Below, piece after piece: positions 3,000 through 50,522 of a stretch of 64,000 bases of DNA. Under the pieces are notes generated by a model. That model ran no database searches. It was not told the DNA's origin and was given only the letters and a program-made list of their open reading frames with translations. Positions within the stretch are counted from its first letter, which is position 1; each line of letters begins with the position of its first letter. The position numbers and the translations under genes were made by a program. Source of the DNA: Chryseobacterium shigense (GTDB lineage Bacteria; Bacteroidota; Bacteroidia; Flavobacteriales; Weeksellaceae); NCBI RefSeq assembly GCF_014207845.1, contig NZ_JACHLC010000005.1:62001-126000 (forward strand), given 5' to 3'.

Positions 3000-3010
3000 T
3001 CTGAACTGTT

Positions 3011-5314
3011 TTACTTCGCCAAAGAAACCCTCAGCGCCAGCAACCCCGTAATTCCCTGTAAATCCTCTACTTTTAAGAATTCCACATCGTTCTGTAGAAT
3101 TTCTTTTTTCTGAAGCTTATTGATGTATTCCAGGTATTCTTTCTGGTTTTCCATCCCGAAATAGACGATGGTAATTTTTCCCGGGCAGGTTATTCTTTCC
3201 GGAGAATCTTTGACATGGGCTTTGTCCAGACGTTTTTTTATAATTTCATAATAGGAATTATAGGCGCCGTCTACATCGAAACGTTTTTCATCCATTCTGA
3301 AACGGATGTCTATTTTTTCGTTATAAACAAAAAGCAGTGAGGCAATATCCAGCTGGATTGGCAGATTGTTTTTAAACGTCTGGAATTCGCGTTCCATATT
3401 GCAGATGGTCTTCAGTTGCCAGTACCTTAATTTGTGAACTACTTTTGAGGTGTAACTAAGATCCGGGGCAATATTATGGCCAATATACAGGTTGTGCTCC
3501 ACACCATCGGATTTGAATCTTTCATAGTAATGGGGAAAGATCTGTTGGGCTTTGACCTGGCTTTCATCCAGCATATCTGCAAGCTTTCTGTTGACCAGCG
3601 TTATAGAATCATCTAAATTTTTCCTGTTGGCATAAAAAAGATCGGTTTGGGTAAAAACCTGTACAAAATAATCTTTGATCTTATTTTTTATCTCCTTGTC
3701 GGTTCTGAGCTCCAGTTTTCCCTGAAGGTAAGGATGAATTTCTTCTCTCAGAAATCTCTGGAAACGCTGTTCCGTATCGGCTTTGATCTCGTTATTCAGT
3801 TCATTTTCAAAGACGTCAAGAGCCAGAAGGTATTTCTCTGAATCTGAATTAATCATCGTGAAAATATCATGTAGACTTTCAAGCTGTTGGTTGAGGTCTT
3901 CAAGCATAAGATTAAAACGCTTGTCTGAGGAGGAACGGATATCTGAGAAACCAAAAAGCGGAGTTAGATTTTTAAAAGAGATCTGTTTCAGCGTATATAT
4001 TTTTTTTGCCAGTGAAGCATTGAAATATTTCTCGGCTTCATTTCTGAATTTCCATACCACACTATCGTGGATGGAGGTATATTCGCGCTGAATGATGGCT
4101 TCTATCTGATAGTTCTTCTCAAAGCTGAACCTGTTCAGGGAGAAAAGGATCATATCTGTTAAAAATTCCAGTTTTTTAAGCTTTAACCCGTTAAAACTGT
4201 TCGCTTGCGGAGACGTGAACTCCATAATGGCCAGAAGTTCACTGTCTTTCATGATGGGAATCACCATGAAGCTATTGATATTGTTATCCCTTAAAATGCT
4301 GAAAGAGGGAAGGCTTTTAACATTCTCATCCATATTGTTGACGTTGGAGATAACAATAGGTTTGGAATTATGATTTAAATTATTAAATGTACTCTTCCGG
4401 GTTTCTTCATCAAATGCATTGATCCAGAAATCCAGAACATGATTGGTGAACAGGTTTTCATAAATGGGGAGCCTGCCGAGTTTCTGATCTTTCTTATCGA
4501 ACAGCATTAAACCGAAGTTAAGTTCCGGTACATCAAAATAAGACTTGAAAATTTCTACAAGATTCTCATTCGGGCTCAGATCTTCAGGATCAATCTCTAT
4601 CATGCTTGATTTCAGGTCGGACAATGCCACTTCTGAAGTACAGTCTACGAGAGAAATAATAGCAAAACCCTTTAAGACCCATGATTTTGATGGGAAATAC
4701 TTTTTCCACAGCTTGAAATCATCCAGGTTTTCCAGCAGCATATCAATAATATCATCAGACGGGATTTTGGCATTTTCAGTAGGGTAAACTTCTGTAAAAT
4801 CAGCATTTACCGTAATCTTATAATGCTTCATGATTCCCAGCCTGTTCGGAATATCATAATAAAAAGGAATAGTACTTCTTACATCCCTCTTAAAATAAGT
4901 TTGGAGAATAAGACAGCAGCAGAAGACATAAAATTCGTTATCATCAATATTTCTGAGTTCTATTTCAAAATCTTTTCCTGCATCTTTCAGTATATTTTTA
5001 AATCTCTCGGTATAATTGAAAGTAATATTGGAAAGGGGAATACTTGCGGCCTTGATCTCGTTGTTGGTAAGCCCTGTCGGGAAGAGGTCTGCAAGAAGCA
5101 GTTTGATGAGGTCTTCATGTTTTTTCAACAGTGAGACATCCTGAAACCCGTCTTTTAATTCCTGGAAATTTTTAGTTCTTTCAATAAGTGATTCTGCATA
5201 ATTGACCCGGTATTCCAAGCGGTCGTTATAGCGGATATGTTCCAGCACATCCAAATATTTTTTGAATGATATAAGAACCTGAAATGGAGCGTCTTTTTTG
5301 TAAAGATTGGCCAA
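3011..5314 (-). CDS. GAF-domain protein of unknown function
   Basis: The protein is 767 residues long. The only domain I can place is a GAF-like segment at about 285-400, which contains the phrases INSFMVIPIMKDSELLAIMEF and LEFLTDMILFSLNRF typical of GAF sensor folds. The regions before and after are helical and charged, with likely coiled coil near 455-500. There are no transmembrane segments, no signal peptide and no histidine-kinase or diguanylate-cyclase motifs, so it is probably a cytoplasmic protein without a recognisable output domain. It is transcribed alone, away from the repeat element at 5.5 kb. Similar long GAF proteins are common single genes in flavobacteria. Function unknown. 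Confidence 0.75.
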   Translation of the reverse strand: MANLYKKDAPFQVLISFKKYLDVLEHIRYNDRLEYRVNYAESLIERTKNFQELKDGFQDVSLLKKHEDLIKLLLADLFPTGLTNNEIKAASIPLSNITFNYTERFKNILKDAGKDFEIELRNIDDNEFYVFCCCLILQTYFKRDVRSTIPFYYDIPNRLGIMKHYKITVNADFTEVYPTENAKIPSDDIIDMLLENLDDFKLWKKYFPSKSWVLKGFAIISLVDCTSEVALSDLKSSMIEIDPEDLSPNENLVEIFKSYFDVPELNFGLMLFDKKDQKLGRLPIYENLFTNHVLDFWINAFDEETRKSTFNNLNHNSKPIVISNVNNMDENVKSLPSFSILRDNNINSFMVIPIMKDSELLAIMEFTSPQANSFNGLKLKKLEFLTDMILFSLNRFSFEKNYQIEAIIQREYTSIHDSVVWKFRNEAEKYFNASLAKKIYTLKQISFKNLTPLFGFSDIRSSSDKRFNLMLEDLNQQLESLHDIFTMINSDSEKYLLALDVFENELNNEIKADTEQRFQRFLREEIHPYLQGKLELRTDKEIKNKIKDYFVQVFTQTDLFYANRKNLDDSITLVNRKLADMLDESQVKAQQIFPHYYERFKSDGVEHNLYIGHNIAPDLSYTSKVVHKLRYWQLKTICNMEREFQTFKNNLPIQLDIASLLFVYNEKIDIRFRMDEKRFDVDGAYNSYYEIIKKRLDKAHVKDSPERITCPGKITIVYFGMENQKEYLEYINKLQKKEILQNDVEFLKVEDLQGITGLLALRVSLAK

Positions 5315-5505
5315 GAGCTGAAATTTAGGGTAAAGTTATGAAAAAAACACAACTTCCAAGTGTATGCAAATTCGTAAAAAGAATGATTATAAAAGCTCTA
5401 TTTGTTCTTTATTAAACAATATCGGGATATTGATAAAGTATTATTTATCGTGGCAAGTATACTTTATTAAAAAATATGTTTCTGATTATGCTGTTACTTT
5501 ATGAG

Positions 5506-5686
5506 TTTTTTAACGCAAAGTTTATTATTTATAGTGTATATATTAAGGCTGCAAAGAAGGAATCAACCAAAGGTTGATTTAATTAAGCGGACTTTTTATT
5601 CTTTCGCTTAATCAGCAATAGGGTTGCCTATCTTTGCCCTACTTAAATGAAACGGTTTTTAAGTGAAAACTTTGCGTTTAAAAAAA
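5506..5686. repeat. MITE-like non-coding repeat with terminal inverted repeats
   Basis: The gap between the GAF gene and nuoN (5315-5756) contains a segment bounded by inverted repeats: TTTTTTAACGCAAAGTTT at 5506-5523 and its near-exact reverse complement at 5667-5686 (one extra T). Inside are two further perfect hairpins: AATCAACC/GGTTGATT (5561-5579) and ATTAAGCG/CGCTTAAT (5582-5612). There is no reading frame of note. The shape fits a miniature inverted-repeat element or a dispersed intergenic repeat. The remainder of the gap is AT-rich with nothing else I can call. Confidence 0.55.
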
Positions 5687-5705
5687 TAATGATCCCAATT
5701 ATTAC

Positions 5706-5736
5706 AAAAAAAGCACAACTGAAAAGTTGTGCTTTT
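5706..5736 (-). terminator. Rho-independent terminator of the nuo operon
   Basis: A perfect 11-bp stem (AAAGCACAACT at 5710-5720 with AGTTGTGCTTT at 5725-5735) and a GAAA-type loop lie about 20 bases past the nuoN stop. On the minus strand the stem is followed by a run of T, as expected for an intrinsic terminator ending the complex I transcript. Confidence 0.85.
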
Positions 5737-5756
5737 ATATATTTTATATCAGGATT

Positions 5757-7136
5757 CTATAATCCGAACTGTTTTGCAAACAGATCCGGGTAGACACCCA
5801 AAATAATAATTGATGCAATAACAAATACCGCTATGATATTGTAAGTAAGTGTTACTTTTTCTGAAGATTTGAATGTAGTTTCTTTAAAGAAGAACATCGC
5901 AATAATCAGTCTTAAGTAATAGGCGATGGAAAGGGCAGAACCTAAAACAGCTATTAATACAAGGAAAGCTGCACCGTTCATTGCCTGGGAAAATAAAGCA
6001 AATTTACCCATGAAACCAGCAGTTAACGGAACTCCTGCCATTGAAAGCATGGAGATTGTAGCAACAGTAGCCAACAGAGGTTCAGTTTTAGCCAATCCTT
6101 TGAAAGCTCCGAAAGAAGTTTCTCTCTTCAGCTTTTCTACCCAGATCAGGCACATGAAAACTCCTACTGTAGACAATGAATAAGCGAATAAATAAAAGGC
6201 AAGATTATAAGTAGACAGGTTTGTCATTCCGAAGAAAACCAGTCCGATGTATCCTGCATGAGATACTGAAGAATAGGCAAGCATTCTTTTCGCATTGGTT
6301 TGGGCAAGACCCATAACGTTTGCCAAAAGTAAAGTAATGATCAGGAATACTCCCAAAACATTAATCCATTCATGGGTAACTCCTGTAAAACCTATGGTCA
6401 TCAGCCTGAATAAAGCAAAGAATCCTGAGATCTTTACTACACTCGCCATAAATGCTGTGATTAATGAAGGTGAACCTGCATATACATCAGGGCTCCACAT
6501 ATGGAAAGGGGCTAAAGCTACTTTAAATGCCAATGCGCAAAGGATCAGTAGAACCCCCAGGATGAACATTACATCTGTAGTATTGGCCAATCCGAAATCG
6601 TGGATTTTATAGAGATCAAAGCTTCCGGCACTTCCGTAAATAAATGCAATACCGAAAAGTAAAAAACCTGTCGCAAAAGCACCCATTAAGAAATATTTGA
6701 TTGAAGCTTCGTTTGATCTTAAATCAGTTTTGTTGGCACCGGCCATTACATATAATGGGATGGAAAGGATTTCTACCCCTAAGAAAAGGGTTACCAGATT
6801 CTGGAATCCGAAAAGAATAATTCCTCCGCATAATGCAAAAAGCATCAGTGCATATAATTCCGACTGGTGGCTTCTGTGGTTGCTGAATGCAAAACCTCCC
6901 AGAAAGAATAACAATAATGTCGTTACAATTGATATTTTGGTGAATAACGCAGTATTTAACGTATACTCATACATATGTCTGTACTTTTCGAAGAAAGAAC
7001 ATTCCGGTAAGAAGCTTACGTATAATGCTACGATTAATCCTAAAATCCCAATGTATCTTGCGAATTTTCCGCGTTCAAAAACTCCTGAAAATAACGCAAT
7101 AACTGCCGTTAGGAAAACAATAATTAAAACACTCAT
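5757..7136 (-). CDS. nuoN: NADH-quinone oxidoreductase subunit N
   Basis: The 459-residue protein has about 14 hydrophobic segments and the antiporter-like proton-translocation module shared by NuoL, NuoM and NuoN, with the conserved phrase VALAPFHMWSPDVYAGSP (loop and lysine-bearing helix) and AKRMLAYSSVSHAGYIG. NuoN is one of the three antiporter-like subunits in the membrane arm of complex I, which pumps protons as NADH reduces quinone. It is the last gene of the operon, 16 bases after nuoM, and is followed by a strong terminator. Length is normal for the family. Confidence 0.97.
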   Translation of the reverse strand: MSVLIIVFLTAVIALFSGVFERGKFARYIGILGLIVALYVSFLPECSFFEKYRHMYEYTLNTALFTKISIVTTLLLFFLGGFAFSNHRSHQSELYALMLFALCGGIILFGFQNLVTLFLGVEILSIPLYVMAGANKTDLRSNEASIKYFLMGAFATGFLLFGIAFIYGSAGSFDLYKIHDFGLANTTDVMFILGVLLILCALAFKVALAPFHMWSPDVYAGSPSLITAFMASVVKISGFFALFRLMTIGFTGVTHEWINVLGVFLIITLLLANVMGLAQTNAKRMLAYSSVSHAGYIGLVFFGMTNLSTYNLAFYLFAYSLSTVGVFMCLIWVEKLKRETSFGAFKGLAKTEPLLATVATISMLSMAGVPLTAGFMGKFALFSQAMNGAAFLVLIAVLGSALSIAYYLRLIIAMFFFKETTFKSSEKVTLTYNIIAVFVIASIIILGVYPDLFAKQFGL

Positions 7137-7152
7137 TTTTTAAAATATCAAA

Positions 7153-8646
7153 TTAGCTTACCATTGATTGGTAGATAAACTTCAACGAACTATTCACCAT
7201 ATCGATTATCGGTTGTGGGAAGATACCAAATACAATCACAAAAACCGCTAAACTTGCCAATACAGAGAATTCTACACTGGAAAGGTCTTTTGCTGTACTT
7301 AAAACAGCTTCGTCTCCTTCTCCGAACATTGCTTTTCCGTAAAATCTCAATAAATAGACAGCACAAAGGATTACCGTAAGACCTGCAATTATTGCTGCCA
7401 GTCCGTTAAAATCATATACAGATTTCAACAGGATGAATTCCCCGATGAATCCATTCGTCAATGGAACTCCCATTGAACCTAAGATAATGATCAGGAATAA
7501 TACGGCAAATTTAGGAGCTACTTTTGCTAAACCTCCCATCTGTCTGATATCTCTTGATTTAAATCTCTTGTATAAAATATCACAGCAGTAGAATAATCCA
7601 ACTACGTTGATACCGTGGGCAAAAGTCTGTACCATTACACCTTCAGCACCTTCAATATTGAATGGGCCTCTTAAAGAGATTACTGCGGAAGAGAAGATCC
7701 CGGCAACCATCAATCCTACGTGAGAGAAAGATGAATAGGCAATAATTCTCTTCATATCTGTCTGGATAATTGCGATTAATGCACCGTGAACAATTCCTAC
7801 AATAGCAAGGATAATAACGATCTGTCCTGAAATTCCTGCAATAGGAAGCGGGGTGATCGGTAATAAATAACGCATAACACCATACACTGCCATTTTCAGC
7901 ATGATCCCTGATAAAAGCATGGATCCCTGAGTAGGAGAGTAGGTATAGGTGTCCGGCTGCCATGTATGGAAAGGGAATACCGGTAATTTCACTGCAAATG
8001 CAAAGAAAATAAACCAGAATACCACAGTCTGCTGCACTTCGTTAAGATCGGCATTGTAAAGATCTGTTAAAGCGAATGATGCAGAGTGGTTGTACACATA
8101 GATCAATCCGGCTAACATAAATAACGATCCAACGAATGTATATACGAAGAATTTTGTAGTGAATTCAAATCTTTTGTTTTCCTGGCCCCAAAGTCCGGCA
8201 ATGAACCAGATCGGGATAAGAGTTACTTCCCAGAAAATGTAGAATAGCAATCCGTCAAGCGATGTGAAAACGCCTATAAGACCGAACTGCATCAGCAGGA
8301 TCAGACCGTAGAATGTATTTCTGTAGCTTACATTTTCGTTGAAAGAAGATAAAATAATGATCGGCGTAAGAATGTTGGTCAGCAATAAAAGCAGAAGGCT
8401 CATTCCGTCAATTCCGAAATGAAGTGAGCTTTTAATGAATTGTGACCAAGGATAATTGATCTCGTGCTGTAATACACTGTCTACCGTCGGATTAAAATTG
8501 AAATCCGAAGCAATATAGAAGGTAATAAGCATCTGGACCAATGCAATTCCCAGCGCCAAATATTTGCTGGATTTATCTTTCCATGCAAAAACTAATCCCG
8601 AACCTACTAGAGGTAATAGTAATAATGTTAATAATAAACCAGACAT
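7153..8646 (-). CDS. nuoM: NADH-quinone oxidoreductase subunit M
   Basis: The 497-residue polytopic membrane protein carries the NuoM signature FHTWQPDTYTYSPTQGSMLL with the preceding AVKLPVFPF helix, and the TDMKRIIAYSSFSHVG segment. It is the middle antiporter-like subunit of the membrane arm of complex I. Its ATG overlaps the last base of the nuoL stop region (8646), which indicates translational coupling. Full length. Confidence 0.97.
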   Translation of the reverse strand: MSGLLLTLLLLPLVGSGLVFAWKDKSSKYLALGIALVQMLITFYIASDFNFNPTVDSVLQHEINYPWSQFIKSSLHFGIDGMSLLLLLLTNILTPIIILSSFNENVSYRNTFYGLILLMQFGLIGVFTSLDGLLFYIFWEVTLIPIWFIAGLWGQENKRFEFTTKFFVYTFVGSLFMLAGLIYVYNHSASFALTDLYNADLNEVQQTVVFWFIFFAFAVKLPVFPFHTWQPDTYTYSPTQGSMLLSGIMLKMAVYGVMRYLLPITPLPIAGISGQIVIILAIVGIVHGALIAIIQTDMKRIIAYSSFSHVGLMVAGIFSSAVISLRGPFNIEGAEGVMVQTFAHGINVVGLFYCCDILYKRFKSRDIRQMGGLAKVAPKFAVLFLIIILGSMGVPLTNGFIGEFILLKSVYDFNGLAAIIAGLTVILCAVYLLRFYGKAMFGEGDEAVLSTAKDLSSVEFSVLASLAVFVIVFGIFPQPIIDMVNSSLKFIYQSMVS

Positions 8647-33725: not shown

Positions 33726-33799
33726 GGTCCTATAGCTCAGTTGGTTAGAGCACCTGACTCATAATCAGGTGGTCCCTGGTTCGAGCCCAGGTGGGACCA
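33726..33799 (+). tRNA. tRNA(CAT), elongator Met (or Ile2)
   Basis: A complete cloverleaf can be drawn: acceptor GGTCCTA with TGGGACC (one T:G wobble), D stem GCTC/GAGC, anticodon stem CCTGA/TCAGG around loop CTCATAA, and T stem CCTGG/CCAGG around TTCGAGC. The anticodon CAT is used by both elongator methionine and lysidine-modified isoleucine tRNA. I favour Met but cannot decide from sequence alone. CCA is not encoded in full. The last 16-20 bases are the insertion site of the island that follows. Confidence 0.92.
33780..33795 (+). repeat. attL core of the integrated element (within tRNA 3' end)
   Basis: TTCGAGCCCAGGTGGG in the T arm and acceptor of the tRNA is repeated exactly at 47566-47581 in the same orientation; the following CCAC also matches after one changed base. 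This is the pattern left by a tyrosine recombinase that inserts at a tRNA 3' end and restores the gene on one side. Confidence 0.85.
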
Positions 33800-33830
33800 C
33801 GAAAGTGAAGAATGAAATTTCTTCAAAATT

Positions 33831-33994: not shown

Positions 33995-36034
33995 ATGACT
34001 GTATCAAAAAACCAATTTTATTCTTTAGAAAATATTGCCAATTGGCAATTAAAAGGTGATGAGAAGATTAAGTTGCCAATTTTACAAAGATCTTTTGTAT
34101 GGAAGCCAAATCAAATAGAAACTGTTTGGGATTCGATTTTGAGAGGTTATCCTATTGGAGCATTTCTTTTGGCAGAAACTACGGATAGTACCTTTGAATT
34201 ATTAGACGGTCAGCAACGTTCCACTTCAATTTCTTTAGGATTTTTTAATCCTTGGGAAGAAGGTTCTGCAACATTTTTTGATAGTAAAAATAAAAATTAC
34301 TATCATATTCCTACGGTTTGGATTGATCTGAATCCTGAAAAAGTTAGTAATACTAATAGATATTTAATCAGAGTTCTCACAAGATCTCATCCTTGGGGTT
34401 ATCAAGCAAAAAACAATAGTTCTACTCTAAGTATCTCTGATCGAAAAAGAGCATTAGATATTTTTAGGAATGCTGGAAGAAATGTAAAATATACTGAGCT
34501 GAAAAATATCGATGTTTTTCCTTTTGATGCAAATCTTCCCATTCCATTAGTTTTTCTATTAAAATATATTTATGGAAAGCAAGATGCTACATCTTCAAAA
34601 GAAAAATTAATTAATCAGATTGCTGATATAAAAATGAATAATCAAAAAGAGAGCTTATATGAAGAGTTCATTTCTTCAAATGCTTTCGATGATTTTATTG
34701 ACGAAATAAGCAAGAATTTGACGAGTTACTCAATTCCAGCAATAGTATTGAGTAATTCATTAATAAAAGTAGCTAATAGCCAAGAAAAAGAGGATCCTAC
34801 ACTATTTGTAAGATTAAATTCACAAGGAACTCCTCTTAATGGAGAAGAGTTAATTTATTCGATCTATAAGGCTGAATTTCCAAAAAGTAAAGAATTAGTA
34901 GAATCAATCAGTGCTGATTTTATTCAACCTTCAAGATTGTTATCATTTGTTAATAGGTTGGTTTGGTCTGACTTAAGTCAAAATAATTATCCAAATTCGT
35001 TCAGTGTAAATCAATTTAGAGATAGATTAAATAATTTAGATTTTTTAAAAAGGTTGGAAGACTTTATTGGTAGTGATAATGAAAGTATGGCAAATAAAGT
35101 TTTTAAAAGATCATTTGATATTTTATTGTCTGAAAATAAAATCAAATTACCAATAATCTTAGTGAAAAGTTTAATAAATGATTACCCAGAAATCTTTCTT
35201 TTTTATCTAAATTGGATTTATATTCATTATTACAACATCAAACCAGAGAGTTTCTCAGAAATAAAAAAAGGCTTTTTCTATTTAACATTATTTACTTTGG
35301 ATAAAAATAAATTACCAAAAGAAATATGGGGTGAGTCGTCAAAATTATCTTTCTGGACTTATCAAAGCTTACAAAAACTTGCTTACAGCAATTATCTATT
35401 TATTACAATGCCTAAAATATCCGATCTGCAAGTAGTTTATAAAATGGTGATTGAAAAGAAAGTCAGATGGAATGAGTTTTATCCTTCAAAGGAGGAATAT
35501 TTAAAACTTTTTGATAATGCTTTGGATGAAAAAGGTTTTGATGAAGGTGAAAAATCTGAGATTTATAAAAACCAATGGAACCATCTTGCAAATCAATTAG
35601 CTTGGAATCGTAACGTATTGATTTATTGTCAGAGAGATTATTTTAATAAAAACTTTCGGGAATTCAATAGTCTGGAAGTTTTAAGTGATACAAATAGACC
35701 ATGGGATTATGATCACATATATCCAAGTAGTTGGGTATATCAACAACAAAATGTTAATCCTCAAATTAGAGATTGGCATAATATGAATGCTAATTTGAGA
35801 GCTATTTCGTTAGAAGAGAATCGAAGTCATGGTAATCGTGAAAACCCTAAACTGAAAGCCGAAGATCTAGAAGCATCAGAATTCTTTATAACTGATGATA
35901 AGGAATATTGGACAAAAATTGAAAATCGAATATATGATGACCAAAAAGCAATGTATTTAATGAGTGCTTTTGTAACTAGAACTATCAATTTTTATAAAGA
36001 AATATACTTTTTTATTGTTGAAAAATCCCTTTAA
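33995..36034 (+). CDS. DUF262/DUF1524 single-chain GmrSD-like protein
   Basis: The 679-residue protein has an N-terminal DUF262 domain with LPILQRSFVW (27-36), GYPIGAFLL (51-59) and LLDGQQRST (69-77), the ParB-like nucleotide-binding core. Towards the C-terminus it has an HNH-type DUF1524 motif, WDYDHIYPSSW (about 570-580, H574), followed by NMNANLRAISLEENRSHGN. GmrS and GmrD supply these two parts in the type IV enzyme GmrSD, which cuts modified phage DNA, and single-chain forms are known in the family. The middle is helical. It is the first gene in the island and is followed by a hairpin. The exact target is unknown. AT-rich composition fits transfer. Confidence 0.85.
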   Translation: MTVSKNQFYSLENIANWQLKGDEKIKLPILQRSFVWKPNQIETVWDSILRGYPIGAFLLAETTDSTFELLDGQQRSTSISLGFFNPWEEGSATFFDSKNKNYYHIPTVWIDLNPEKVSNTNRYLIRVLTRSHPWGYQAKNNSSTLSISDRKRALDIFRNAGRNVKYTELKNIDVFPFDANLPIPLVFLLKYIYGKQDATSSKEKLINQIADIKMNNQKESLYEEFISSNAFDDFIDEISKNLTSYSIPAIVLSNSLIKVANSQEKEDPTLFVRLNSQGTPLNGEELIYSIYKAEFPKSKELVESISADFIQPSRLLSFVNRLVWSDLSQNNYPNSFSVNQFRDRLNNLDFLKRLEDFIGSDNESMANKVFKRSFDILLSENKIKLPIILVKSLINDYPEIFLFYLNWIYIHYYNIKPESFSEIKKGFFYLTLFTLDKNKLPKEIWGESSKLSFWTYQSLQKLAYSNYLFITMPKISDLQVVYKMVIEKKVRWNEFYPSKEEYLKLFDNALDEKGFDEGEKSEIYKNQWNHLANQLAWNRNVLIYCQRDYFNKNFREFNSLEVLSDTNRPWDYDHIYPSSWVYQQQNVNPQIRDWHNMNANLRAISLEENRSHGNRENPKLKAEDLEASEFFITDDKEYWTKIENRIYDDQKAMYLMSAFVTRTINFYKEIYFFIVEKSL

Positions 36035-36170: not shown

Positions 36171-36180
36171 TATTATAAAA

Positions 36181-37334
36181 TGAGAAAACCAATCATTAAA
36201 GCAATCATCAGAACTGATAAGACTGATAAAAAAACAGGCGAATGTCCTATATGTATTCAAATCAGAATGAATGGAGATAAAAAAAGAATTTCAATCGGAG
36301 AAAAAATACATCCTTCGCATTGGGATACGGATGCAGGTCGTGCAATAGGCAAAGGATATGGAAATCTGAACAAGATGATTGATAAGCGAAAAAGCGATTT
36401 AGAGGAATTTTGCACAGATAGCATTATTGCAGGGTATCAATTATCATTTTCTGATATAGATAAATTTTTAAATGGGACAAAGAACAGCAATTTTTATGAT
36501 GTTTTCGATTCAGTCATGGAAATAAAGAAACCAAAAATTTGTGATGATACTAAATATAAGTATGCTACTTTACGTAGCAGATTAAAAGCATTTCAACCGA
36601 GAATATCTACTTCAAATATTGATGTTGCTTTTATCACAAGATTTGATAATTATTTAAAAGGCTTGAATATTGGAGATGGGGGTATTTACAATCATCATAA
36701 GTGCTTGAAATGTATTATAAATGAAGCTAATAGATATAAAAAAGCAAAAATTGAGCAGCCGTACGGTAAAGATATGTTTACAATTAAGACTCCAAAGCAT
36801 AAAACTGTTTTTTTAGATGAAGATGAAGTAGTTAAGTTTAAAGGTTTTAAAAGCGATAGTATTTTAGCTAATACAGTAAGGGATATGTTTTTGCTTTCCT
36901 GTTATTCAGGTTTAAGGTATTCTGACCTGTTTTCATTGAAAGTATCAGATATAGACTTTAACAAAGGAATTATATCAAAGAAGATGTTAAAAACTAAGCA
37001 TAATATTGATATTCCAATGAATAGTCAAATAAAAACATTACTCTTGAAATATATGGTAAGTCAAAAGTCCAATACAAAAATCTTTAGAGAGGTCAGTAAT
37101 CAAGTAGGAAATTCTATTCTGAAAGAAATAGCAAAAGAGTGTAAGATCAATAAAAATATAACATTTCATGTTGGACGTCATACTTTTGCTTCTTATTTGG
37201 TGAACAATTGTAATATCTCCCTTCCTATTGTAAGTAAGCTACTAGGACATGTAAATATTGCCAATACTTTGATTTATACAAATTCAAATATTAATAATCT
37301 TAAAAGCGTAATGAGTAATGTTCGTTTCGGATAA
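36181..37334 (+). CDS. Tyrosine recombinase (integrase) of the element
   Basis: The 384-residue protein starts with the N-terminal arm-binding domain common in Bacteroidota integrases (about 1-90), then a SAM-like core-binding domain (about 105-195) and the catalytic domain. The catalytic residues are visible: R246 in SGLRYSDL, a lysine near 271-273, H330 and R333 in HVGRHTFASYL, H357 in LLGHVNI and the nucleophile Y366 in TLIYTN. All are present, so it should be active. It lies about 2.4 kb from the attL core. It would catalyse integration and excision at the 16-bp tRNA repeat. Confidence 0.93.
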
Positions 37335-39933: not shown

Positions 39934-41328
39934 ATGAGAAAATTAAAAGAAAGACGGTTTCTGTTCTTACTGAACCGCACTAACAAACTTAAAAAAAGAA
40001 TAGCAGTATTAGAATCTTTAGCATTAGAAAACATAAAATCCAAAGAAATTTTGACTGTAGAAGAAACGTTGGAGTTATTCAATATGAGCCGATCAACATT
40101 TGATAGATTAAGAAAAAAGGTTTTGATGCTCCTCAGCCCAATAGGAACGGGAAGATTTATGTTAATAGAGCAGAACTGGAAAAATTTTTACAAAAAAAGT
40201 AGTATGGTAGATTTAATTAAATTTTATCTTGAAAATGTATCGCTAAGCGATTATATCTTAGCGACAAAATTTATAAAAATAAGAGAGGAAGGTGGATTTG
40301 AAATTTTTAAAGCTGACCCTGATGTGATTTCTTTTTTGTCACAAAAGGTAAAAGCTGAAGATTGTAATTTACCAAAATCTGAAATTGTAGTTCAACAAGA
40401 ACATATTATCAAAAAGCTGTCATACCAGAATAAGTTCATCAGTTTTAAAAGAAAATTGAACGCAAAAGAAGGTAGATTGTCGGTTTGTCAAAACATAAGA
40501 AAAGACTTTATCCGCATCAAAAATTTAAATCCTTTTACTGATCTAAATTATTTGAATTTTGTTGAAATAATCGAACTGTATGCGCACGAGTTCGGGATTG
40601 AAAAAGAAAAATTTTGGAAGGCAAAAATTACTCAGGTCGAATTGGGGGTAAATATCAGGTTTAATATGAATATAGCTTCTATTATGAGTAGTGTTTCAAG
40701 AATGAAAGGTATGGAAAATACGCTACGAATTGGAAATACTGTTAATTTTAAAAATCAAAAATATGAAGTCTCTGTATATAATAAATTAGAAAGAGAATCT
40801 CAACAAAATGAAGTTTTCAAAAATGCAAGCAAGGTAAGAAGGAAGCATTTGGTAAAAAAAGTCTCAAAGAATAATAGCTTTATTAGGATTGAGCTGAGAG
40901 TGAAGCGAGTGAGTCAATTTAATCGGTTTTCCATAAAAAGTAAAATACGGACTCTGGAATCTATCAGAAAGAATTTTCATTCGTTGGGTAACGAATTATA
41001 CAAACTTTTTGTTAATATCTCATTTGTAAATGAAATTTCGCCAGATATTACTCAGGGTCTTGTGAAGTCTCAGTTAAATAGCAAGAGCGCAAAAGCTTTT
41101 GATGAATATTTGAAATTTCTAGGATTGAAATATTTTGGAGTTAAAAAGTTTATTGAGTTCGCATCTCCGATCTTGAATACAAATAATAGGAATAAATATC
41201 TTGCAAATTTGGAAGATATTTACAATCAATATAAAGGAGATGATGATTTTGTGAAAAAAGAGTTTCATCGGAAATTGTCAGCAAGGATCAATAAACTCGT
41301 CGTGCCTGCTATTTCAAGTAGTAACTAA
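39934..41328 (+). CDS. HTH protein resembling phage/plasmid replication initiators
   Basis: The 464-residue protein has a helix-turn-helix at about 40-70 (LTVEETLELFNMSRSTFDRLRKK) and later the phrases KITQVELGVNIRF, VSVYNKLERES and SFIRIELRVKRVSQF. These recall the beta strands of filamentous-phage gene II/X-type and related rolling-circle replication proteins, where such IELR and YNKL segments are conserved. I cannot point to a clear HUH motif, so this is a family guess. The start is an ATG at 39934 (MRKLKERR); an in-frame ATG four codons upstream is possible. It would allow the excised element to replicate. Confidence 0.5.
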   Translation: MRKLKERRFLFLLNRTNKLKKRIAVLESLALENIKSKEILTVEETLELFNMSRSTFDRLRKKVLMLLSPIGTGRFMLIEQNWKNFYKKSSMVDLIKFYLENVSLSDYILATKFIKIREEGGFEIFKADPDVISFLSQKVKAEDCNLPKSEIVVQQEHIIKKLSYQNKFISFKRKLNAKEGRLSVCQNIRKDFIRIKNLNPFTDLNYLNFVEIIELYAHEFGIEKEKFWKAKITQVELGVNIRFNMNIASIMSSVSRMKGMENTLRIGNTVNFKNQKYEVSVYNKLERESQQNEVFKNASKVRRKHLVKKVSKNNSFIRIELRVKRVSQFNRFSIKSKIRTLESIRKNFHSLGNELYKLFVNISFVNEISPDITQGLVKSQLNSKSAKAFDEYLKFLGLKYFGVKKFIEFASPILNTNNRNKYLANLEDIYNQYKGDDDFVKKEFHRKLSARINKLVVPAISSSN

Positions 41329-41340
41329 GGTTAATATATC

Positions 41341-41520
41341 TCTAAAACTATTATTACTAATATAGAAGATATAGTAAAGGGCAGAGGTGGATCAGACAAT
41401 TATAAAGCATCCGATGGACCAATATATATTCCTCTCAAAACTTTAGTGATGGGAGTTTCTAAATGAAGATACATTGAAAAAAGTAAGTCAATCTTAGAAA
41501 TGTACCTATTTAAGCTTTAA
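41341..41520 (+). pseudogene. Decayed gene fragment with in-frame stop
   Basis: A frame without a start codon encodes VKGRGGSDNYKASDGPIYIP and LKTLVMGVSK, stops at TGA (41464-41466), and continues in the same frame with RYIEKSKSILEMYLFKL to a TAA at 41518. The reading looks like protein on both sides of the stop, as expected for a dying small gene. I do not recognise the family. Confidence 0.45.
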
Positions 41521-41736
41521 AAATTTCTCACTAGGAAATCTGTTCGCTAAGTAATTTGAAATAAAATAATAATGGTTAAAACTAATACAAGCAAAGTCTA
41601 ATATAAAAATGTTGCAAGGATAAAATCGGAATTTTAAAATTTGTTTTTTATGTATTGCTAACTGTAATATTGCATGTTTGGAGAAATTTTTATAAAATAG
41701 GTTATTGCTGTAATTTTGCAATGTATTTGTTTAGAA

Positions 41737-41768
41737 AACAACGAGATTAATATCTCGTTGTTTTTTAT
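41737..41768 (+). terminator. Terminator before the GHKL operon
   Basis: An 11-bp perfect stem (AACAACGAGAT at 41737-41747 and ATCTCGTTGTT at 41752-41762) with loop TAAT is followed by T6. It insulates the next operon from upstream transcription. Confidence 0.8.
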
Positions 41769-41801
41769 TTTCAAACAATATTTTAAATTATTATTTTAGG
41801 C

Positions 41802-41809
41802 TATTTTTG
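41802..41809 (+). promoter_or_regulatory. -7 box TATTTTTG for the GHKL operon
   Basis: TATTTTTG matches TAnnTTTG and lies 30 bases past the terminator and about 90 bases before the first gene. No TTG at the usual -33 distance is visible, so support is partial. Confidence 0.4.
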
Positions 41810-41900
41810 TAGATTAGTTATTAGATATTTACAGCAACTATATTAGCCAGATACATATGCCTAAATATTAAAACCAATAATCCACCTTAATAAGATATTA

Positions 41901-44381
41901 ATGAGTAATAATACATTAAAAGTACCATTTAAAGTTTCTGCAAGAACCGCAAAACTTATAGGCTTGGAAAATTTCTCAACAGAGGAAGGAGCAATTATAG
42001 AGTTAGTCAAAAATACATATGATGCTGATGCTACCAATTGTATACTGATCTTTGACCTTAAATATCACAATGAAAAAATAATATCTTCTGAAGGAGTAGT
42101 AATTGAAAATAGAAAAATTGATAAATCAATTAGTACAATTTACATAATTGATAATGGTGTTGGAATGTGTGGCAATATTATTCAAAATCAATGGATGACT
42201 ATTGGGACGGATAATAAGCTTTATGAATATACAACTGAGAATGGAAGAATAAAAACGGGTGCAAAAGGTATTGGTAGATTTGCTCTTAATAGGTTGGGTA
42301 TGCTAACAAATATGCTATCTATTCCTCAACTTATTGTAAAAGAAGAGGATGATGATATATCAACAATTGATAATAGCGAAAATTTAGGTTTTGAATGGAC
42401 GGTAGATTGGAAAGATTTTGATGTAAAAGGTGCTGTGGTATCTGATATAGAGGCATTATTAACAGAACGTGAAAATATAAATTTAAAAGAAGAATTAATA
42501 ACTAAGTATTCTTCATTTACTCGCATCCAGCAATTAATAAATAAAACTGATTTTACCTCTGGTACAATTATAGAAATTAGTGAACTCAATGATGAGTGGG
42601 ATGAAGATAAACTTAATAAATTATTTTCCAACTTAGAAATGCTTTTGCCTCCAGAAGAACAAAAAGACTTTAATATTGATTTTTTTCTTCTTAATAATTT
42701 AGAAGAGTATGGTCAAGTAAAAAGAGCCTTTTATGATGATTTTGATTACAAAATTAATGCATCTTATGAAAATGAAATATTAAATGTAGAAATACTGCGG
42801 AATGAGCTAGATATAGAAGTTCTCGAAAATAGATATTCAGGTATTTTCGATTTTGATATAATGAAAAAATATCCTTATAGATTGGAAGATTTCAAAAAAG
42901 ATACGATTAAATTTACTTTACCAACCTCTGAACTTTTATCAGATAAAATTGATAAGGATATGCTCAAAAGAATTGGAAAGTTTGATTTTACATTTTATTT
43001 TTTAAAAAATACGATTTCTGATGATCAAGATGATGTGAAAAAATATCCTTATAAAAATATAAATAGTGCAAATAGAAGGGCGTGGTTAAGAAAGTTTGGA
43101 GGAATTAAAATATTTAGAGATGATTTCAGAATACGACCGTATGGTGAAAATGGAGATGATTGGTTACGACTTGGAGAGCGGCAAGCCCAAAGTCCTGGTG
43201 GAGCAGGGCAAAGGTTAGGAGGATATAGAATTAGACCAAATCAAATAGCTGGAACAGTAAAAATTTCAAGACTAAATAATACAAGCTTTCAAGATAAATC
43301 AGGTCGAGAAGGTTTAATAGAAAATGACGAATTTGAATTATTTAAAAATATCTTACTTGAAATAATATCACTCTTTGAAAAGGATAGAAATGTTGTAATG
43401 AATAGTCTATTTAGGTTGAATTCGATTAGGAATCTTGATGTGGAAATGTTAAGAATTGGTCTTAAAGAAGCTGAGAGAATACGTAAACAAAAGCAAGAAA
43501 GAGCTGAAAAACCTAAAAATGATGATGAGCCAAATTCTGAAGAATCAACAGACTATTCCGATAGTGAAGAGCAGATGGCTGATACAATATTTATCTTAGA
43601 GAAATCTAATGAAAAAAAGGATGAAGAACTGCGATTATTGCGAGGGTTGGCTAGTGTTGGTCTGATTATATCATCCTTTGCTCATGAAGTAAGAAGTTTG
43701 CGTGCTAGGCTTGTACCAAGAACAAAATTTTTGTTAAGTGAGTTGAAAAAGCATTTGGATGAAGTAAAGCTTTCAGAAGAACTAGATCAGGATGATAATC
43801 CTTTTTATATGATTAATTTAATGAGAGATGAAGACATAAAATTAAAACATTGGTTAGATTATTCTTTAAGCACTCTAAAAATAGATAAACGAGAAAGAAA
43901 AAATTTAGATTTTTCAAAATATTTCGAGAATTTCAAGGCTAATTGGAGCAAAGCTTTAGAGCAAAGGAATATTAGTTTGGAACTAAAAAAGGAGGATGAT
44001 GAAGAACATACTGTAAGAGCCTTTGAGGTAAACATGGATTCGATTTTTAATAATCTTCTTTCAAATTCTATAAATGCACATTATGGTTATAATAAAGAAG
44101 GAAAAAAAATCGAAATTAGCTGGAAGAAAAATGAAAATAATATCGAAATAATTTTTTCGGACAATGGTAAAGGTCTAGATGGAAAATATAAAGATATGCC
44201 TGAGGAAATTTTTAATTTGAATGAATCATCAAAAACAGATAATAAGGGTAATAAAATTGGGACTGGTTTAGGTCTTTATATAGTAAAATCTATCATTGAA
44301 GAATATAATAACTCATCTATTTCAATTCTAAAAATAGATGAAGGTTTAACATTTAAGATTAGTTTTAAAATTAGAAAATGA
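41901..44381 (+). CDS. Dual-GHKL ATPase (MORC/Hsp90-like plus histidine-kinase-like)
   Basis: The 826-residue protein carries two GHKL ATP-binding modules. The N-terminal one (about 1-200) has the E-x-x-x-N motif (E34, N38), DNGVGM (84-89) and the G-rich lid GAKGIGRFALNRLG (120-133), as in Hsp90, MutL and MORC. A middle region (about 200-560) is probably an S5-like transducer plus coiled coil. The C-terminal one (about 580-826) has a histidine-kinase layout: H-box FAHEVRS (H595), N-box FNNLLSNSINA (716-726), G1 box DNGKGLDG (754-761) and G2 box GTGLGL (787-792). No membrane helix is present. The family is known from paraMORC-type proteins in restriction-modification operons. The start codon of the next gene overlaps its stop (ATGA). 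Confidence 0.88.
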   Translation: MSNNTLKVPFKVSARTAKLIGLENFSTEEGAIIELVKNTYDADATNCILIFDLKYHNEKIISSEGVVIENRKIDKSISTIYIIDNGVGMCGNIIQNQWMTIGTDNKLYEYTTENGRIKTGAKGIGRFALNRLGMLTNMLSIPQLIVKEEDDDISTIDNSENLGFEWTVDWKDFDVKGAVVSDIEALLTERENINLKEELITKYSSFTRIQQLINKTDFTSGTIIEISELNDEWDEDKLNKLFSNLEMLLPPEEQKDFNIDFFLLNNLEEYGQVKRAFYDDFDYKINASYENEILNVEILRNELDIEVLENRYSGIFDFDIMKKYPYRLEDFKKDTIKFTLPTSELLSDKIDKDMLKRIGKFDFTFYFLKNTISDDQDDVKKYPYKNINSANRRAWLRKFGGIKIFRDDFRIRPYGENGDDWLRLGERQAQSPGGAGQRLGGYRIRPNQIAGTVKISRLNNTSFQDKSGREGLIENDEFELFKNILLEIISLFEKDRNVVMNSLFRLNSIRNLDVEMLRIGLKEAERIRKQKQERAEKPKNDDEPNSEESTDYSDSEEQMADTIFILEKSNEKKDEELRLLRGLASVGLIISSFAHEVRSLRARLVPRTKFLLSELKKHLDEVKLSEELDQDDNPFYMINLMRDEDIKLKHWLDYSLSTLKIDKRERKNLDFSKYFENFKANWSKALEQRNISLELKKEDDEEHTVRAFEVNMDSIFNNLLSNSINAHYGYNKEGKKIEISWKKNENNIEIIFSDNGKGLDGKYKDMPEEIFNLNESSKTDNKGNKIGTGLGLYIVKSIIEEYNNSSISILKIDEGLTFKISFKIRK

Positions 44382-45037
44382 AATATAAGATCGCATACAT
44401 AGACGAAGATAAAGGTTGGATAAATACCTTTTATCATACATTTAAAGATGATTTTGATATTGAGAGAATAGAAGTTAATTCAGAATCTTCAATTCAAGCA
44501 ATCACTAAATTATTAATTGATAGTGATGTTGATGCTATAGTAACAGATTATTTATTAGAAGAAAATGCTGAAGTTCCTTTTAATGGAAATAAAATAGTTG
44601 AGGAAATGAAGTATTTAAGACCATATTTTCCAATTGTCATGTTAACTTCTTATCCTAATCAGGCTATTAGTCATACTGATGATGTGCATATAATCTACAG
44701 TAAAGATATTCTTACTATAGAAGATGATAAAGATGAGGAAGAATTGGAATTTTTCAAGAAAAAAATCCTATCTAATATCACAAATTATTATAAAAAAATT
44801 GACGATACCAACCTGAAAATTGAGAACCTAGTAGAAAAGCGAAATACTCAGGGATTAAATGTTAGTGAGGAAGAAGAGCTAACGAAACTTTATATATTAT
44901 TTGATGAACTAAATCCAAATGGTAAGGATTTACCAGCAAGTTTAATCGAAAGAAATTCAATATCAAAACTAAATGATTTCGTTAATGAAACTAAAGAAAT
45001 TTTGGAGGAACTTAAAAAATTAAATCAGAAAAATTAA
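44378..45037 (+). CDS. Receiver-domain protein partnered with the GHKL ATPase
   Basis: The 219-residue protein has a CheY-like receiver domain at about 1-120 with a full phosphorylation pocket: acidic D9 and D11 (YIDEDKGW), phosphoacceptor D57 (IVTDYLLE), T90 (VMLTSYP) and K109 (YSKD). The remaining 100 residues are helical, charged and probably coiled coil, with no DNA-binding motif. It is therefore a response-regulator-like protein without a usual transcription output. Overlap with the ATPase gene by 4 bases supports tight coupling. Phosphotransfer from H595 of the ATPase is an inference. Confidence 0.85.
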   Translation: MKYKIAYIDEDKGWINTFYHTFKDDFDIERIEVNSESSIQAITKLLIDSDVDAIVTDYLLEENAEVPFNGNKIVEEMKYLRPYFPIVMLTSYPNQAISHTDDVHIIYSKDILTIEDDKDEEELEFFKKKILSNITNYYKKIDDTNLKIENLVEKRNTQGLNVSEEEELTKLYILFDELNPNGKDLPASLIERNSISKLNDFVNETKEILEELKKLNQKN

Positions 45038-45616
45038 ATGGATAGATTTAGAAAAGCAACTCCAAAAAGAAGAAAAATAATCGCTTCTGTTGCAAAATAT
45101 AATGATCACAGGAACGATCTAATTATAGATTTTGATAACCGTTGTGGCTATTGTAATGATATTGATGTCTGGCGAACAGTTTGGTTTGAATTAGATCATT
45201 TTGTTCCCAAAAAGTATTTAAAAACTATTAAAGATACTGATTATTCTAATTTAGTCTACGCTTGTAGATCTTGTAATAATTCCAAAAGAGCTCATTGGCC
45301 TACAGGTAATGAATTTATTCATAATCAAAATAATGAAGGTTTTATTGATCCATGTGAAGATAATTATGATGATCAATTTTATAGATGCCCAGATGGAAAA
45401 ATAATGTATCATACAGAATTAGGAAAATGGATGTATTATAAGTTAAAATTCCACAAACCTCAACATGAAATTATCTACCGTATAGAGCAATTAGATAGTT
45501 TAATAGAAGATTGTGAAAATCTTTTATCTGTTATAGATAGTCAAATATTAAAAGATAGAATGTTAATTTTATATCGAGAGTATAGAAATTATACTAAACA
45601 ATTAAGTAGTATTTAA
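45038..45616 (+). CDS. HNH endonuclease
   Basis: The 192-residue protein has a zinc-finger HNH nuclease at about 30-85: CGYC (36-39), ELDHFVPK (D53, H54), N71 in SNLVYACRSC (CxxC at 76-79), and N80/N81/K83. The catalytic histidine, asparagine and zinc cysteines are all present. The C-terminal part (about 100-192) is helical. It resembles the PtuB-type HNH nucleases. It begins directly after the receiver stop (TAAATG) and the next gene begins directly after its stop, so all four genes form one transcript. It is probably the cutting subunit. Confidence 0.9.
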   Translation: MDRFRKATPKRRKIIASVAKYNDHRNDLIIDFDNRCGYCNDIDVWRTVWFELDHFVPKKYLKTIKDTDYSNLVYACRSCNNSKRAHWPTGNEFIHNQNNEGFIDPCEDNYDDQFYRCPDGKIMYHTELGKWMYYKLKFHKPQHEIIYRIEQLDSLIEDCENLLSVIDSQILKDRMLILYREYRNYTKQLSSI

Positions 45617-47479
45617 ATGAAAAACGCAACAAAATATTTAAGTCAAGAGTGTCAATCAAACCCTTGGTTTGTAGACCGACTTATTATTTCTGCATTTTTA
45701 TATATTAATAAGATAGATGTGCTTCATAATCAATTTGTAATTGATTACTTAATAACCGAAAATGATGAGGATTATTTTACTTTAGAGGAGTTTATTAAAT
45801 TAATAAAAAAAGAGAAAGATTATTTAGACATTGAAGATGTTATCGAGCTATTTGAGTTTGTAATTTCTCCTTCCGATAGAATTGTAAATGGTGCTATTTA
45901 CACCCCATCAGAAATTAGAGAATATATTATAAGTGAAACTTTTAATAAAAATATTAATGTCCTTCAACAAGTTAAAATTGCTGATATATCATGCGGTTGT
46001 TCGGGCTTTTTATATACTGCTGCTGTTGAATTAAACAGATTAACTGGAAATAATTACCAATCTATTTTTCAAAATCAGATTTTTGGATTAGATATTCAAG
46101 AGTATTCAGTTACTAGAAGCAAATTATTACTTAGTTTGCTTGCTCTAAAAGAAGGTGAAGATATTGAAGAGTTTTATTTTAATATTCATCAAGGTGACGC
46201 TTTAACTTTTAGATGGGATCAATATTATGATGATTTTGAGGGATTTCAAATTATAGTTGGAAACCCACCGTACGTTTGTGCTAGAAATTTAGATGATGCA
46301 GTAAAAGAAAATCTTCAAAATTGGATTGTATGTAACTCAGGTAATCCAGACTTATATATACCTTTTTTTCAAATAGGTTTTGAAAATCTTTCAATTAATG
46401 GTGTTTTGGGCTATATTACTATGAATACTTTCTTTAAAAGTTTAAACGGTAGATCTTTACGAAGGTATTTTGAAGATAATATGATTGGAGTTAAAATTAT
46501 TGATTTTGGAACCCAACAAATTTTCAAATCAAAGAGTACGTATACATGTATTTGTTTCTTAGAAAATACCCAGAAAAATCATGTCCAATACTATAGATCT
46601 GTAAAGAAAGAATTACCTGAAGATGCCAATGATTTTAAAACAATTTACTATGGAGATTTAAATGCTAAGAAAGGATGGAATTTACATAATAATAAAATTA
46701 TATCTAGAATAGAAGCTGTAGGTAAATCTTTTGGAGAGATTTATAGTACTAGACATGGTATTGCAACATTAAAAAATGATATTTATATTTTTAAACCCGT
46801 AGCTGAAGACAATGATTTTTATTATTTACAGAACGGCGATTTGTACCCTATAGAAAAGGGAATATGTAAAGATATTCTTAATTCAAACAAGCTTAGTAGA
46901 AGTATAAATTTTGAAGAGGTAAAAGAAAAGGTTTTATTTCCATATGATAATAAAATTAAACCCAAAGCTCTTGATGAAGATTTTTTGAAGGAAATGTATC
47001 CTAACGCTTATGAATATTTTAAACGAAAGAAAAAAATATTAGCGATGAGAGATAAAGGTAAGGGTGAATATGAGAAATGGTTTGCTTTTGGAAGAACTCA
47101 ATCATTAGAGCAGATTGGTAATAAAATATTTTTCCCTAAATTTTCAGACAAAATACCAACTTACTTAATAAGTAGTGATGTCGATTTACTATTTTATAAT
47201 GGTCAAGCTATTGTAGGACATACAGTAGAAGAAATGATCGTAATAAAAAAGATTTTACAATCAAGATTATTTTGGTTTTATATAAAATCAACGAGTAAGC
47301 CATATTCCTCTGAATATTATTCACTAAATGGAAATTATATGAAAAATTTTGGAATTCCAAATTTTAATGAAGAAGAAATTAATTTCTTAATGTCAGAGGA
47401 AAATCAGGAAATTATAGATGTGTTTTTGGAAGACTATTATGGAGTTCATTTAAATGCAGATTTAGTTTTAAATCAGTAA
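45617..47479 (+). CDS. N6-adenine DNA methyltransferase (Eco57I/TaqI class)
   Basis: The 620-residue enzyme has the adenine methyltransferase motifs in gamma-class order: motif X GAIYTP (92-97), SAM-binding motif I ADISCGCSG (122-130), GLDI (157-160), GDAL (193-196) and the catalytic NPPY (216-219). The C-terminal half (about 390-600) should hold the target-recognition domain, with phrases such as EKWFAFGRTQSLEQIGNKIF and TSKPYSSEYYSLNGNYM seen in Eco57I/TaqI-like enzymes. No nuclease or helicase motif is in the chain. It is the last gene of the operon, and would modify host DNA at the site that the partner HNH nuclease cuts (inference). Confidence 0.92.
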   Translation: MKNATKYLSQECQSNPWFVDRLIISAFLYINKIDVLHNQFVIDYLITENDEDYFTLEEFIKLIKKEKDYLDIEDVIELFEFVISPSDRIVNGAIYTPSEIREYIISETFNKNINVLQQVKIADISCGCSGFLYTAAVELNRLTGNNYQSIFQNQIFGLDIQEYSVTRSKLLLSLLALKEGEDIEEFYFNIHQGDALTFRWDQYYDDFEGFQIIVGNPPYVCARNLDDAVKENLQNWIVCNSGNPDLYIPFFQIGFENLSINGVLGYITMNTFFKSLNGRSLRRYFEDNMIGVKIIDFGTQQIFKSKSTYTCICFLENTQKNHVQYYRSVKKELPEDANDFKTIYYGDLNAKKGWNLHNNKIISRIEAVGKSFGEIYSTRHGIATLKNDIYIFKPVAEDNDFYYLQNGDLYPIEKGICKDILNSNKLSRSINFEEVKEKVLFPYDNKIKPKALDEDFLKEMYPNAYEYFKRKKKILAMRDKGKGEYEKWFAFGRTQSLEQIGNKIFFPKFSDKIPTYLISSDVDLLFYNGQAIVGHTVEEMIVIKKILQSRLFWFYIKSTSKPYSSEYYSLNGNYMKNFGIPNFNEEEINFLMSEENQEIIDVFLEDYYGVHLNADLVLNQ

Positions 47480-47565: not shown

Positions 47566-47586
47566 TTCGAGCCCAGGTGGGTCCAC
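47566..47586 (+). repeat. attR core: 3' tRNA fragment
   Basis: TTCGAGCCCAGGTGGG at 47566-47581 repeats the T arm/acceptor segment of the tRNA at 33780, and is followed by TCCAC where the intact tRNA has ACCAC. It marks the right boundary of the element; the sequence after it should be the original chromosomal tRNA downstream region. Confidence 0.85.
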
Positions 47587-47587
47587 A

Positions 47588-47622
47588 AAAAAAACACTTA
47601 CCCTCTTGTAAGTGTTTTTTTA
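47588..47622 (+). terminator. Terminator right of attR
   Basis: AAAACACTTAC (47591-47601) pairs with GTAAGTGTTTT (47608-47618), followed by T-rich sequence. It was probably the original terminator of the tRNA gene before the insertion. Confidence 0.8.
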
Positions 47623-50423: not shown

Positions 50424-50471
50424 TCTAAAATTCCGGACTCTTTGTACCTTCAAAATGTAACCAGATTCTGG

Positions 50472-50522
50472 GGTTCTACAGCTCGGTTGGTGAGAGCACC
50501 TGACTTATAATCAGGTGGCCAC
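50472..50522 (+). pseudogene. 5' tRNA remnant with TAT anticodon
   Basis: Fifty bases align to the start of the tRNA at 33726 with 43 matches, covering acceptor 5' strand, D arm and anticodon arm, and then stop before the T arm. The anticodon loop reads CTTATAA, so CAT has become TAT. No 3' acceptor strand follows. This is a decayed tRNA half, probably a scar of another insertion or deletion. Confidence 0.7.

Follow-up and report, generated by a model that had tools for sequence, protein, structure and literature searches.

A compact operon at 41901-47479 of the 64,000-nucleotide stretch of Chryseobacterium shigense DNA analyzed here (the window) encodes a dual-GHKL protein (gene 1), a stand-alone receiver (gene 2), an HNH nuclease (gene 3) and an N6-adenine DNA methyltransferase (gene 4). 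The best reading of this set, judged from the sequences, is that of a distinct, widespread N6/HNH variant of the phosphotransfer-linked restriction class predicted in 2021 (PMC8011034). The four genes lie on the + strand and are joined by an ATGA overlap and then by two TAAATG joints, which confirms the single tight operon of the original prediction. They very probably constitute a restriction-type defence unit, and genuine His-Asp phosphotransfer from gene 1 to the receiver appears likely. We assign a probability of roughly 55% to the full chain, in which the phosphorylated receiver would turn on the HNH nuclease within a mobile restriction-type unit.

We mapped 144 loci of gene-1 relatives, near-copies included (for example L012/L013/L016 and L097/L098/L099, both sets thinned for the distance correlations given below), from named genomes, order- and phylum-level searches, plasmids and viral contigs; five of the 144 (L051-L055) came in via Response_reg_2 rather than gene 1. 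Twenty further loci had been omitted before counting, as short stretches of places already covered (L023-L030, L031-L035, L056-L059) or as weak matches in other kinases (L036-L038, E about 1e-11). A short receiver of the window type is present in 48 of the 144 loci, all of them found via gene 1 alone and none belonging to L051-L055, so that the other genes provide an independent test. Neighbourhoods are partly visible at L060-L085, whose flanks measure about 1.5 kb; L011 and L104 stop within gene 1 or just past it, and L046, with a split gene 1 and no receiver called, stands outside the 48.

The HNH gene accompanies the receiver in 48/48 loci (46 by a simple gene caller, L091 and L092 as an overlapping frame). 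Beside the trio, 45 loci have an N6-methyltransferase from a single homology cluster (33 times downstream, 12 times upstream); the methyltransferase of L044 is annotated as Eco57I-type, L060 reveals one once extended (L192), and L086 ends too soon. All four genes occur together in 47 of the 47 assessable loci, on which ground we reject a chance neighbourhood. The predicted link with restriction-modification holds across these loci, and a lack of conserved co-occurrence of receiver, ATPase and methyltransferase genes, the test to which the prediction had been tied, was not seen. A gene of the C5-methyltransferase cluster adjoins none of the 48 loci. For the window, L006 and L045 the N6 label is a Pfam assignment, for some plasmid loci it comes from annotation and otherwise from clustering, and the C5-methyltransferase and Vsr labels of gene clusters reflect motifs and recall, not Pfam. 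Among the loci listed, gene joints range from a 32-base overlap to a 10-base spacing in 23 of 25.

Genome-wide searches agree with this picture. Of 296 order genomes, five match the close-kin gene-1 profile at E 1e-30, each with all four genes. The receiver profile at E 1e-5 matches 40 of 173 genus genomes (the C. shigense genome included); five of these 40 contain a full-length match in a short frame, and 5/5 carry the four-gene set (5 of 173 genomes, again counting C. shigense), the remaining matches residing in frames of 353-567 amino acids, a few of which span most of the profile. The receiver of L189 was taken from a receiver-profile match situated between the HNH and kinase genes. Hosts include Bacteroidota, Alphaproteobacteria (Salipiger, Ensifer), Deinococcota (Deinococcus), a Klebsiella plasmid and viral contigs.

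By its conserved residues, gene 1 is two predicted machines in one chain, with the residues of both ATP sites kept. An N-terminal MORC/MutL-like ATPase cassette (about residues 1-500) precedes a long helical linker bearing H595-E596 and a C-terminal kinase ATP domain (713-824), and Pfam detects HATPase_c_3 near the start and HATPase_c at the end. A 54-row profile (20 of the 120 listed matches, out of 3028, 33 of 40 locus kinases and the window) compared with the PDB matches MORC3 and MutL in the N-terminal ATPase region and, along the C-terminal third with its His helix, ZraS and HK853. Within these rows the N-terminal GHKL motifs (E34, N38, D84, G86, G88, G120, K122, G123, G125, G221, T222) are invariant, as are the phospho-His H595 (54/54) and residues N718, N722, G756, G787-T788-G789 and G791 of the kinase ATP domain, with E596, D754 and G758 conserved in at least 90%. 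Foldseek searches with an AlphaFold model of gene 1 returned two groups of structures, ZraS and HK853 as well as the MORC2 and MORC3 ATPase cassettes. Compared as a whole, with a view to the S5-type domain that follows the GHKL domain in MORC-type ATPases, the model aligns with the latter cassettes over 527-592 columns (template modelling (TM) score 0.42-0.55 by target, root mean square deviation 8-19 Å), and its domain arrangement is not reliable (predicted local distance difference test score 82, predicted TM score 0.59).

Five of 25 aligned gene-1 relatives (P0111, P0115, P0118, P0119 and P0120) show a break between the two halves: their ATPase half is 72-73% like that of the window, the same as the rest, whereas their kinase half is 53-58% like it (the other 20 reach 77-87%), a pattern resembling the exchange of a cassette. 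A similar break in similarity is visible by eye in receiver P0233.

The receiver comprises 219 amino acids, with a complete phosphorylation pocket and a helical tail; its sole Pfam signal is a Response_reg match below threshold (E 0.01). In a 50-row alignment (16 of the 120 listed matches, out of 391, 33 of 40 locus receivers and the window), in which receiver identity falls to 17%, the phospho-Asp D57 is invariant (50/50) and D9, T90 and K109 are conserved in at least 90%; the window receiver also has the acidic residue E10. Neither Pfam nor the structure model reveals a DNA-binding domain in gene 2, and we rejected a plain transcriptional regulator on this basis. PorX, first in the Foldseek list for the receiver, was not used (TM score 0.42 by query, 9 Å root mean square deviation).

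The original prediction had allowed for either a phosphotransfer or an ATP-driven switch, and we favour phosphotransfer over a purely ATP-driven mechanism because H595 and D57 are invariant. An ATP-only restriction unit, in which gene 1 would act as a MORC/MutL-like clamp and the kinase half and receiver would serve as scaffolds linking the clamp to the HNH nuclease, is in keeping with the available descriptions of MORC and paraMORC proteins in restriction operons (PMC2292703) and of a GHKL-containing Shedu protein whose defence relies on ATPase and nuclease alone (PMC12137116). Against it stand the two invariant phosphoacceptor residues, the conservation of T90 and K109 and the match of the kinase half to solved kinases across both His helix and ATP domain, and we regard it as unlikely. 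The further proposal that the switch controls nuclease action stands as a conditional one, receiver gating of the nuclease being our inference.

Gene 3 matches the PtuB model of PADLOC, which served as the defence-model library (E 2e-14), and its profile matches retron and Septu PtuB-type HNH proteins in the PDB. Six of its HNH residues (C36, H54, N71, C76, N80, K83) are invariant in 29/29 rows (28 of 35 locus proteins and the window) and three others (C39, D53, C79) are conserved in at least 90%; C36, C39, C76 and C79 are presumed to be metal cysteines. Gene 4 matches Pfam Eco57I and N6_Mtase, PADLOC MTase_II (E 1e-99) and, in the PDB, the adenine-specific methyltransferases 8cxz, 7lni and M.BseCI (7qw5). 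Its motif is NPPY; of the 45 relatives beside the core, 33 share NPPY, 11 have NPPF, and L005 has GKPPY. Pfam, profiles and conserved residues thus uphold the domain assignments made earlier for all four proteins (a dual-GHKL ATPase, a receiver with a full pocket, an HNH nuclease and an N6-methyltransferase).

Bellieny-Rabelo et al. described in 2021 the pair HEF_HK (PF19191) and Response_reg_2 (PF19192), with 91.6% linkage across 644 regions, and suggested that it acts in a two-component-like manner in restriction control (PMC8011034). HEF_HK kinases carry HATPase_c_3 and HATPase_c and have mainly type II neighbours with C5-methyltransferases, Vsr and HNH_2 (PMC8011034). The window pair resembles it in having an N-terminal HATPase_c_3, a DHp-like region, a C-terminal HATPase_c, an adjoining receiver with a conserved Asp and restriction-modification genes nearby. 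A profile comparison of the window kinase group with HEF_HK kinases aligned 701 columns (E 7e-56), and both groups share a middle region with the motifs GG-I-RD-F-R-PYG and DKS-REG.

The two sets also differ. PF19191 gives no match to gene 1 at E up to 1 or to nine relatives at E up to 0.1, but matches the control HEF_HK loci L053 and L055 (E 3e-17 and 2e-28). Likewise, PF19192 gives no match to gene 2 at E up to 1, with L053 as a matching control (E 3.5e-23); its cut-off is exceeded in 5 of 197 genomes of the window's family. The receiver and Response_reg_2 profiles are not alignable (12 columns, probability 0.2%), a result that speaks neither for nor against a shared ancestry of the receivers, and the protein in the receiver position has about 530-600 amino acids in HEF_HK systems compared with 219 in the window. 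HEF_HK neighbourhoods, as that account presents them, contain mostly C5-methyltransferases and Vsr, although HNH_2 and N6/N4-methylase domains occur (PMC8011034), whereas the window type always has the N6-methyltransferase and this HNH protein. Since the kinases are distantly homologous over their full length while the Pfam models fail, and the N6 and HNH partners are constant, we interpret the window set as a variant of the predicted class and not as a new class. The unit was missed by both Pfam models of the 2021 paper, and, if our reading is true, it would supply a concrete nuclease output for that prediction (PMC8011034).

The original prediction knew of no named system with exactly these four genes. 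None turned up in the literature searched, among the papers listed, which is not a claim of absence from print; the related pair just described nevertheless tempers the novelty. ParaMORC GHKL ATPases in restriction operons were reported by Iyer et al. in 2008; their paraMORC1 family, which is extended at the C terminus and may be found together with HNH nucleases, could be akin to gene 1 (PMC2292703). The word receiver is absent from that account (PMC2292703), whereas the window operon has one. The HNH protein is related to the PtuB effectors of Septu and retron systems, but its partner is a GHKL kinase with a receiver and not the PtuA ABC ATPase, and a methyltransferase is added. As in the Detocs phosphorelay defence, kinase and receiver parts would serve defence; the Detocs effector cleaves nucleotides, and that system is not known to include a DNA methyltransferase. 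PADLOC, to which the original prediction had looked for an assignment, recognizes genes 3 and 4 and gives no match to genes 1 and 2 (for gene 1, none at E up to 1, PtuA included), so that the window kinase and receiver were missed by the models tested. One PADLOC model, PDLC03419 ('type II restriction enzyme'), does recognize the ATPase portion in 5/5 gene-1 relatives tested (E 0.002 to 5e-17).

Kinase, receiver and HNH nuclease co-diverge as a fixed core, and the methyltransferase has been repeatedly exchanged. Across 41 loci, pairwise distances correlate strongly (kinase-receiver r 0.92, kinase-HNH 0.93, receiver-HNH 0.84, with 0/2000 permutations as high), compared with 0.56 for methyltransferase and kinase (38 loci). 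The methyltransferases fall into three families, with 8 changes on a 45-row kinase tree; the kinases of L049 and L189, for instance, are 62% identical although their methyltransferase families differ, and the L189 methyltransferase is 76% identical to that of L002. As a conventional type II nuclease reading its own site would seldom survive such an exchange, we infer that recognition resides in the methyltransferase or that the HNH nuclease is not site-specific. When the methyltransferases of the six closest loci are compared in windows from 331 on, mean identity runs from 0.27 to 0.76 and is lowest at the C-terminal end.

The effector position varies among related clades. In a separate clade of seven loci, forming one fully supported branch, a different short receiver precedes an MBL-fold protein, which takes the place of the HNH protein (7/7), with an N6-methyltransferase present in 6/7; two of these MBL-fold proteins were tested and resemble LmuA and RTasMBL, which belong to known defence systems. 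Other clades have longer proteins in the receiver position, together with C5-methyltransferases or with partners of about 245 amino acids. The combination of short receiver and HNH protein requires two changes on a 134-row FastTree tree, or one if only well-supported branches are counted. At L117, L123, L134, L140 and L158, the receiver-position protein has 380-400 amino acids and is accompanied by a conserved partner of about 245-252 amino acids; the members of these systems that were scanned gave no Pfam match above cut-off. The C. shigense genome itself contains a second relative, of another type (L193, G000:C7, about 2810-8387), with an 820-residue dual-GHKL kinase, a C5-methyltransferase-like gene, proteins of 232 and 213 amino acids and a Vsr-like cluster gene.

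We propose the following working model. The N6-methyltransferase would mark host DNA and probably supply sequence specificity, and the MORC-like ATPase half of gene 1 would clamp DNA or a DNA-bound partner and sense unmarked or invading DNA. Clamp closure would induce autophosphorylation of H595 by the kinase half, the phosphate would move to D57 of the receiver, and the phospho-receiver, via its helical tail, would activate or release the HNH nuclease, which would cut the invader. A broader version, which we put forward tentatively and at somewhat less than even odds, holds that phosphotransfer licenses cutting: interchangeable methyltransferases would act as recognition subunits of the fixed kinase-receiver-HNH core, with an MBL-fold effector in the related clade, and self and foreign would be told apart at the methyltransferase and acted upon through the His-Asp relay, not by a site-reading nuclease. 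Two-component signalling is known above all for changing gene expression; here its parts appear to be wired directly to a nuclease and to a methyltransferase, within a mobile unit spanning several phyla. If true, this would be a new way of making restriction conditional, with a phospho-switch and exchangeable recognition and effector parts.

Several observations weigh against this model. The trigger is a guess, the MORC-like cassette being the sole candidate sensor. No receiver-HNH fusion was seen in the mapped loci, nor any sign of contact between the two proteins. The first ATPase motif is missing from the annotated frame of the Salipiger kinase (L040), gene 1 is split in the Klebsiella and Rhizobium copies, and GKPPY replaces NPPY in the L005 methyltransferase (4920-6647), which may be inactive. 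Finally, the methyltransferases of the six closest loci show no single hypervariable block that would mark a recognition region, which does not favour fast switching of specificity.

The opposite polarity would employ the same parts: the kinase would keep the receiver phosphorylated and the HNH nuclease inhibited in healthy, methylated cells, and the nuclease would be freed once methylation is lost or the kinase is damaged. The PtuB-type HNH protein suits such a guard, as partners hold the PtuB-type nuclease in Septu and retron systems, and no result here separates the two polarities; overall, we consider inhibition improbable relative to activation by the phospho-receiver. That the pair governs when or how strongly an ordinary type II restriction system is expressed, and not the nuclease itself, is very improbable: small helix-turn-helix-like genes, which restriction control proteins resemble, lie upstream in 9 of 47 loci of the window type (by eye), but none is found among window open reading frames (ORFs) of at least 20 amino acids at 41328-41960, and the receiver has no DNA-binding domain by Pfam or model.

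The operon resides in a tRNA-integrated mobile element, as originally predicted from the sequence: a tRNA-Met, a copy of its 3' end and an integrase delimit or accompany the island, whose guanine-plus-cytosine content is 29% compared with 37% outside.

Features of the four-gene operon and of the island that carries it (window positions)
Feature	Positions	Strand	Basis
Gene 1, dual-GHKL protein	41901..44381	+	ORF, Pfam HATPase_c_3 + HATPase_c
Gene 2, stand-alone receiver	44378..45037	+	pocket D9/E10-D57-T90-K109, helical tail
Gene 3, HNH nuclease, PtuB-like	45038..45616	+	Pfam HNH, PADLOC PtuB, PDB profile
Gene 4, N6-adenine DNA methyltransferase	45617..47479	+	Pfam Eco57I, N6_Mtase; NPPY at 216-219
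tRNA-Met, integration site, left junction of island	33726..33800	+	
Copy of tRNA-Met 3' end, right junction of island	47566..47590	+	23/25 identical to 33780-33804
Tyrosine integrase of island	36180..37334	+	Pfam Phage_integrase E 5e-25
GmrSD-like gene, second restriction-type gene of island, directly after tRNA	33995..36034	+	Pfam GmrSD_N E 3.5e-26

The right junction was placed by the 23/25 repeat comparison; a search for the tRNA end that allowed up to 3 mismatches, with a 25-base word starting four bases before the junction repeat, did not report the window copy at 47566. The tRNA-Met region was found in 98/98 genus genomes searched (C. shigense included), and similarity ends no more than a dozen bases from the tRNA end in about nine-tenths of the best rows, counted by eye. 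The congener G808 harbours a diverged four-gene copy in another island at the same tRNA-Met (L190, 898-16973), bounded by two exact copies of the tRNA-Met end. Such tRNA-island, plasmid and viral-contig settings are what a mobile defence unit would be expected to look like. Outside the island, the tRNA-Met region recurs in degenerate form (77%) at window positions 50428-50518, where no tRNA was called. Small helix-turn-helix-like genes of 65-84 amino acids lie upstream of gene 1 in L001, L005-L009, L011-L013 and L048.

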